64,000 nt of DNA from Antrihabitans stalactiti (GTDB lineage: Bacteria; Actinomycetota; Actinomycetes; Mycobacteriales; Mycobacteriaceae): contig NZ_VCQU01000003.1 in assembly GCF_012932915.1 (NCBI RefSeq), forward strand, positions 248,001 through 312,000, in the 5' to 3' direction. The position numbers and the translations under genes are program-made. The notes below the pieces were generated by a model, which searched no databases, had not been told where the DNA came from, and was given only the letters and a program-made list of their open reading frames with translations. Positions 1-902 of the stretch are shown here, piece by piece; position 1 is the first letter of the stretch; each line of letters starts with the position of its first letter.

Positions 1-130
1 CTTGGTAGCCCTGCGCGAGAAGGCGCCGGCCCACCTCGCGCGCGTTCGCGAACAACGGTTGCACGGCGGGGTCGGCAGGGCCGCGGGCGTGGTTTGGCTT
101 CCGATCGCGTCCGCGTGACCACACCACCAC
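1..130 (-). CDS. possible N-terminal fragment of an unrecognised gene (partial)
   Basis: Reading leftward from a run of GTG codons (124-130) there is an open frame to the window edge. Its codon composition looks coding: about 50% GC at position 2 and above 80% at position 3. The peptide begins VVVWSRGRDRKPNHARGP and ends with an amphipathic stretch containing REVGRRLLAQGY. An in-frame stop lies just upstream at 140-142. No family is recognised. The same bases also read as an open frame on the other strand (stop 116-118), so the strand choice is a judgement. If real, this gene is divergent from the Clp-N regulator and shares its operator region. Confidence 0.3.
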   Translation of the reverse strand, partial: MVVWSRGRDRKPNHARGPADPAVQPLFANAREVGRRLLAQGYQ

Positions 131-154: not shown

Positions 155-202
155 CGTCAAGACAGCCTTGACGCCGAACGGATCGTCAACCTACAGTTGA
201 CG
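155..202 (+). promoter_or_regulatory. promoter with two tandem inverted-repeat operators
   Basis: Two perfect 7-5-7 inverted repeats stand in tandem: CGTCAAG-N5-CTTGACG at 155-173 and CGTCAAC-N5-GTTGACG at 184-202, 29 bp start to start. A sigma-70-like promoter is embedded in them, with -35 TTGACG at 168-173 and -10 TACAGT at 192-197 (18 bp spacer). The ATG at 204 is only 7 bp after the -10 and has no Shine-Dalgarno sequence, so the transcript is probably leaderless. One repeat covers the -35 and the other runs from the -10 to the start codon, as expected for a repressor. The downstream protein carries a helix-turn-helix and is the natural candidate. Confidence 0.6.
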
Positions 203-203
203 C

Positions 204-902
204 ATGACGACAAAGGTACGGCTCGACGACCTCATCGACGGAATCCGCAACGGATACCCTGACCAACCTCTCGACCAGCTCACTGCGGCAGTCCTTGCGG
301 CAGAACACTTCACGGAGATCTCCGACCATCTGGTCGGTCACTTCGTGGACCAGGCCAGACGCAGTGGTGCATCGTGGTCGGAGATCGGCTCCAGCTTGGG
401 CGTGACGAAACAGGCAGCACAGCAGCGGTTTACGCCGCGGGCCGATGCGAACATGTTTGCTCGCTTCACGGAGAAAGCGCGCAAGTCTGTGGTCGAGTCG
501 CAGGAGGAAGCGCGGAAGGGCAAGCACACCGAGATCCTCGCTGCACACCTCGTGCTCGGACTGCTGGCCGTGCCGGACAGTTTCGCGATGCGCGCTCTCG
601 CCGAACAAGGCATCACGGCAGCCGCGGTGCGGGCTGCGGCCGAAGCGGTATTGCCTGACGGGAGTTCGAATCCCGCGCCGCCGACGTTGATTCCCTATGC
701 GAACGAGGGGAAGAAAGCACTGGAACTGACGATTCGGGAGGCTGTGCGCCTTGGCCACAATTACGTCGGGACGGAGCACATTCTGCTCGGCCTCTTGGCC
801 TATGAAGGCGATGCGCCAGGACCGTTGGTAGAACTGGGCGTCGATGCGGACGCCGTCGAAGCGTTCATCCTCGCCGCACTGGCATCCGTCACGGGAGAGT
901 AG
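204..902 (+). CDS. Clp N-terminal (ClpR) domain protein with N-terminal helix-turn-helix
   Basis: This 232-residue protein has two parts. Residues about 1-75 hold a predicted DNA-binding helix-turn-helix (SWSEIGSSLGVTKQAAQQRF). Residues about 80-230 carry two ClpA/ClpC-type N-terminal repeats, seen as ILAAHLVLGLL and the matching VGTEHILLGLL. The Clp-N domain normally binds adaptors or misfolded substrates of Clp ATPases; there is no AAA module here. A soluble regulator that senses protein damage or Clp substrates is a reasonable inference. The ATG lies directly behind a promoter with two tandem inverted repeats, suggesting autoregulation. The 3' end overlaps the convergent YjbR gene by 14 bp. 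Confidence 0.8.
   Translation: MTTKVRLDDLIDGIRNGYPDQPLDQLTAAVLAAEHFTEISDHLVGHFVDQARRSGASWSEIGSSLGVTKQAAQQRFTPRADANMFARFTEKARKSVVESQEEARKGKHTEILAAHLVLGLLAVPDSFAMRALAEQGITAAAVRAAAEAVLPDGSSNPAPPTLIPYANEGKKALELTIREAVRLGHNYVGTEHILLGLLAYEGDAPGPLVELGVDADAVEAFILAALASVTGE

Follow-up and report, generated by a model that had tools for sequence, protein, structure and literature searches.

An orthologue of ClpC2 in Antrihabitans stalactiti lies behind tandem palindromic operators on a predicted leaderless promoter

The window analyzed here is a stretch of 64,000 nucleotides from Antrihabitans stalactiti (contig NZ_VCQU01000003.1, positions 248,001 to 312,000), and it carries a gene whose product is, judged from its sequence, ClpC2. 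Two palindromic operators, O1 and O2, precede the gene and overlap its promoter (Table 1). The promoter anatomy, the orthology, and the conservation of the operators across relatives are established here. Together they belong, very probably, to a clpC2 gene with an autoregulated promoter, in which an operator-bound dimer reads the half-site through a helix-turn-helix (HTH), is released by a ligand, and then serves as a sponge. Specifically, a ClpC2 dimer joined by its N-terminal helices would bind each of the two palindromes (half-site CGTCAA), and the bound protein would block the -35 and -10 elements of the leaderless promoter. A ligand on the Clp-N domains, which is cyclomarin A in mycobacteria and possibly also unfolded proteins or other cyclic peptides, would take the dimer off the DNA. 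The released promoter would then yield much ClpC2, by which the ligand would be soaked up and ClpC1 shielded. Repression, operator binding, derepression by cyclomarin A, and the sponge effect come from work on mycobacteria, and we infer by analogy that the same holds here.

Table 1. Location of the clpC2 gene, its protein segments, its operators and promoter elements in the window, and of related loci outside it
Feature	Location	Strand	Basis or remark
Operator O1, CGTCAAGacagcCTTGACG (CGTCAAG-acagc-CTTGACG)	155..173		Perfect 7-5-7 dyad; inner arm is the -35
-35 element TTGACG	168..173	+	Promoter scan
Operator O2, CGTCAACctacaGTTGACG (CGTCAAC-ctaca-GTTGACG)	184..202		Perfect 7-5-7 dyad; holds the -10, ends 1 nt before ATG
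-10 element TACAGT	192..197	+	Promoter scan; 18-bp spacer to -35
clpC2 orthologue, 232 aa, predicted leaderless	204..902	+	Best PDB relatives include ClpC2 9p2p, 8ad9, 8ada
N-terminal dimerization helices, aa 7-53	222..362	+	Match to 8ada
Helix-turn-helix, aa 58-76	375..431	+	AlphaFold model of aa 1-96; conservation
Recognition helix KQAAQQRF, aa 69-76	408..431	+	Part of HTH
Two Clp N-terminal repeats, aa 85-226	456..881	+	Pfam Clp_N 1.1e-21, two stretches; 8ad9 match
Operator-preceded flavin monooxygenase loci	L053, L063, L108-L137		Nocardia, Antrihabitans stalagmiti

The initial annotation described the product as an HTH coupled to two Clp N-terminal repeats with no ATPase, and this architecture holds. 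The repeats are recovered by Pfam. The HTH scores under the Pfam cut-off, but an AlphaFold model, its similarity to RelI, and the family alignment all back it. The N-terminal part matches Mycobacterium tuberculosis Rv2667 (8ada) at 1e-22. The C-terminal part matches the ClpC2 structures 9p2p and 8ad9 at 2e-34 and 3e-30, respectively, with ClpC2 chains ranking ahead of ClpC1. The traits that mark ClpC2 are found in both the protein and its promoter: an N-terminal dimer domain is followed by a ClpC1-NTD-like double Clp_N with no AAA+ ATPase, CGTCAAC-n5-GTTGACG, identical to the published operator, ends 1 nt before the ORF and forms with its near-copy O1 a pair over the -35 and -10, and the residues of the ClpC2 dimer salt bridge are present. 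The latter, D46 and R57 in M. tuberculosis, correspond to D41 and R52 here, of which D41 is kept in 64 of 65 orthologues and R52 in all 65. The genome has one ClpC2 and, separately, a full-length ClpC1. A PADLOC search gave no match for the protein. Upstream, clpC2 is neighbored by a gene for an AAA/VWA_CoxE protein, and downstream by an MmcQ/YjbR-like ORF (read by eye). The upstream gene is divergent (window 1-130, minus strand, running on into locus L016), encodes a protein of about 701 aa with AAA ATPase and VWA_CoxE parts, and starts about 25 bp from O1; it is not a conserved neighbor of clpC2, being present only in the window's own loci. We also considered the product as a RelI-type antitoxin, a short protein encoded beside a RelS toxin gene, and rejected this, given its 232 residues with Clp_N and the two neighbors just described.

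The demonstrated effector of ClpC2 is cyclomarin A, and the Clp-N repeats are the ligand-binding part of the M. tuberculosis protein (PMC10030653). Its cyclomarin-contact residues F96, F172, and E181 correspond to F85, Y165, and E174 here, and the tyrosine in place of F172 is shared by 16 of the 65 orthologues. At the same place in ClpC1, F80Y is listed among engineered cyclomarin-resistant mutants (PMC6395927). Y165 and the resistance of this mutant together imply that the ligand of the window ClpC2 may not be cyclomarin. The initial annotation had gone further and viewed the protein as a reader of Clp substrates or adaptors, which would make ClpC2 a general proteostasis sensor and the antibiotic only a mimic. 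In line with this, a 2026 paper reports that unfolded proteins too relieve ClpC2 repression and proposes cyclomarin to be a substrate mimic (PMC12913811), and a milder induction of ClpC2 occurs upon heat shock (PMC10030653). The same 2026 paper found no ClpC2 induction by ecumicin and ilamycin (PMC12913811). A general sensor of this kind, however, would add to the published model without supplanting it, and the antibiotic-site residues F85 and E174 are conserved; we regard it as a tenable but rather doubtful reading, and keep to an autorepressor that a ligand on its Clp-N domains would release.

For this autorepressor, the comparison of related proteins suggests that the HTH (aa 58-76), rather than Clp-N, recognizes the half-site; Clp-N would sense the ligand and perhaps make extra DNA contacts. 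Taylor et al. took the C-terminal Clp-N domain, through R185 and R189, to be the part that reads DNA (PMC10030653). Transferred to the window protein, this assignment would have the operator read by R178 and R182, with the N-terminal part only dimerizing. The R185A/R189A double mutant binds more weakly in EMSA and shows 2-fold derepression (PMC10030653), the dimer is needed (R57A), and R182, the counterpart of R189, is invariant in the 65 ClpC2 orthologues and is Q in ClpC1. Given the effect of the double mutant and the invariance of R182, the C-terminal domain may contribute to DNA binding. The alignment with 8ada, the N-terminal crystal construct of that paper, stops at residue 67, two residues short of the recognition helix, and the other published crystal construct begins at about residue 83 of the window protein. 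Hence, the recognition helix is in neither crystal, and no helix-turn-helix is named in the text of the paper (PMC10030653). Residues 46-80 form the best conserved segment, with a mean majority frequency of 0.90 versus 0.69 for the Clp-N part. The AlphaFold model of residues 1-96, built with an alignment (pLDDT 78), has helices at 58-65 and 69-76, with pLDDT about 90 for residues 51-70 and 73 for residues 71-80. This N-terminal model alone was used because the full-length single-sequence model was poor (pLDDT 49). A Foldseek search with it returned no significant match, the best being Fis at an E-value of 0.54.

The same half-site, in tandem and with the leaderless layout, also precedes HTH proteins that have no Clp-N, which argues against Clp-N as the reader. 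Five HTH-only proteins of Nocardia, 88-97 aa in length (L108, L113, L115, L116, and L121), begin one base downstream of tandem CGTCAA-N7-TTGACG dyads; at two of these loci, one or more of the dyads carries a single mismatch. A search of 201 family genomes for tandem perfect CGTCAA-N6-TTGACG gave seven loci (L167-L173), and all seven lie directly upstream of small leaderless HTH genes without Clp-N (Pfam was run on two). The genomes of genus g4 that have such N6 sites (G003, G101, and G114) have no ClpC2. Proteins combining the HTH with a DUF3887-like C-terminal part (below the Pfam cut-off) have GTCAA-TTGAC dyads near their start (L154 and L158), and a tandem pair arranged in the same leaderless way occurs at L151. 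Most of the weak HTH relatives lack a dyad near the start, which shows that not every member of the wider HTH group has the operator. The operators of the HTH-only genes could be bound by another protein, or they could reflect a promoter ancestry common with clpC2. With these loci and the conservation of the HTH set against the mutant data, reading of the operator by the Clp-N domain appears improbable, and the HTH is the preferred reader.

The promoter anatomy given by the initial annotation, with two perfect 7-5-7 dyads over the -35 and over the -10 and start of a leaderless gene, was recovered in full. The arms of O1 and O2 differ by a single base pair. TTGACG-N18-TACAGT is the sole sigma-70-like promoter in a scan of positions 60-1500 (shuffles average 0.2), and ATG 204 sits 7 nt past its -10, where transcription should begin, which fits the predicted leaderless start. 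The motif had been written as CGTCAA-N5-TTGACG, which is wrong: the true spacing is CGTCAA-N7-TTGACG, and the N5 form has no perfect match genome-wide. An Rfam search of the window gave no match. Lone perfect 7-5-7 dyads are ordinary, with 10 in the window and 8.6 expected on average under a Markov model; a tandem pair (arms at most 1 base apart, within 60 bp) occurred in none of 60 simulated windows. That the dyads are chance palindromes before a gene that is not autoregulated, as the commonness of single dyads would allow, has next to no probability, for the simulations gave no tandem look-alike and the dyad is kept at the same place in 30 of 30 relatives, a conservation that already refutes chance.

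Whether the dyads are absent upstream of orthologues was a check proposed with the initial annotation, and they are present. Among the 30 closest loci, which were picked within the family by protein similarity alone, all have the O2 dyad and 29 have both dyads, at a spacing of 28-29 bp aside from one at 17; in nearly every locus, the second dyad immediately precedes the start codon. We then inspected 67 distinct clpC2 loci, a set in part chosen by operator pattern. O1 is kept in 65 of them, a single nucleotide separates O2 from the start codon in 57, and T9 and A10 of O2 are found in 66, while positions 9-10 of O1 are not conserved. Palindrome symmetry does not require T9 and A10, and their retention is as expected of a -10 element. 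Across 121 family genomes, the perfect CGTCAAC-N5-GTTGACG occurs in 55 of the 69 with ClpC2 and in 4 of the 52 that lack it (odds ratio 47, p 4e-16, both without correction for kinship). One of these four, G088, retains a single perfect operator at a gene (L061) that we first took for an HTH-only gene and then rejected as such, since with its frameshifts it reads as a decayed clpC2. The proposed scan of the genome for a regulon (perfect sites) added nothing further. The only other perfect site (C2:249258) falls within a long coding sequence that resembles a cytochrome P450 reductase, and was discarded as a regulon member. Elsewhere in the window, positions 1342-1377 form a perfect palindrome with 17-bp arms (GAGTCTTTTAGGAGTCC-AG-GGACTCCTAAAAGACTC), which is one of 182 copies in the genome at no more than 3 mismatches, compared with 0 for a reversed control pattern. 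It is a candidate dispersed palindromic repeat or strong terminator.

A gene for a class A flavin monooxygenase (about 400 aa) has a second tandem operator pair before it in Nocardia and Antrihabitans stalagmiti; the nearest solved relatives of the enzyme are 6-hydroxynicotinate monooxygenase and the tetracycline destructases. The operator code thus reaches a possible detoxifying enzyme. The operator is present in 34 of 34 orthologues with at least 73% identity and available upstream DNA; counting all monooxygenase loci, it is present in 34 of 39, the exceptions being four distant homologues (61-64% identity) and one locus without upstream DNA. The divergent neighbors of the monooxygenase include an HTH-only gene, a fusion of HTH and PEP mobile domain (L111), or PEP-domain proteins. 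An intact clpC2 with operators of its own is found in several of the monooxygenase genomes, which would allow regulation in trans. No second tandem site was found in the window's own genome. On the minus strand of L117 (the same locus as L053), a 260-aa ORF combines a ClpC2-like N-terminus (its first 53 residues) with an alpha/beta hydrolase; it has lost the HTH and still sits directly behind the tandem operator. At two further Nocardia loci (L067 and L085), tandem operators lie between a PEP-mobile-domain gene and a gene for a small membrane protein, with neither clpC2 nor the monooxygenase adjoining.

Evenly balanced, in our judgment, is the wider proposal that ClpC2 belongs, as one branch, to an actinobacterial family of repressors. 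In such a family, a single HTH would read tandem dyads with a GTCAA(C) half-site on the leaderless promoter of its own gene, and the sensor would be swapped among two Clp_N repeats, a DUF3887-like part, a PEP-utilizing mobile domain, or none. As part of this proposal, the operators would also control the flavin monooxygenase of Nocardia and A. stalagmiti, so ClpC2 could link the detection of peptides that target ClpC1 with their chemical inactivation. ClpC1 is a tuberculosis drug target, and one class of compounds is blunted by ClpC2, a built-in decoy. How a ligand releases ClpC2 depends on which part of the protein reads the DNA. With the HTH as reader and Clp-N as a sensor only, the published view, in which the ligand covers the surface that binds DNA, would yield to an allosteric mechanism. 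A second output of the same sensor could be tested at the monooxygenase promoters.

Taylor et al. (2023, PMC10030653) showed that ClpC2 of mycobacteria is a repressor of its own promoter. The published ClpC2 operator, CGTCAAC-n5-GTTGACG, lies one to two bases before the ORF and often occurs as two copies over the -35 and -10, and the transcript is probably leaderless; cyclomarin A frees the protein from DNA, which leads to derepression, and the ClpC2 so produced is a sponge protecting ClpC1 (PMC10030653). Rhodococcus, Gordonia, and Nocardia are already in the alignment of Taylor et al. (PMC10030653). Hence, the window presents an unstudied member of a known system. The self-regulating repressor foreseen by the initial annotation agrees with this, in that the gene is by homology a clpC2 and autorepression of clpC2 is published for mycobacteria; the switch is not of a new type, as this autorepression and its operator have been in print since 2023 (PMC10030653). 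What goes beyond Taylor et al., as far as the literature searched shows, is the argument for the HTH as reader together with the monooxygenase promoters. A literature search for the operator motif combined with autorepression gave no match.

The HspR/HAIR and ClgR circuits, like that of clpC2, are autoregulated and control actinobacterial chaperone and protease (Clp) genes; they differ from ClpC2 in using other DNA sites and other protein families. The RelI antitoxin (Rv2664) of RelS-RelI has a related N-terminal/HTH part (2.7e-7 to 9sdc); RelI is a toxin-bound antitoxin, whereas ClpC2 is not. RelI has already been linked to the HTH of ClpC2, fusions with DUF3887 and DUF2812 have been reported, and the authors found for RelI no upstream inverted repeats and no evidence of DNA binding (PMC13284704). 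Closest is mycobacterial ClpC2 itself (Rv2667 and M. smegmatis ClpC2), which has the same domain order, operator sequence, tandem layout over the -35 and -10, leaderless start, and dimer salt-bridge residues, and shares most of the cyclomarin-contact residues. The window protein differs from it in belonging to another genus, in having Y165 for F172, and in the G/C variant of the O1 inner arm.
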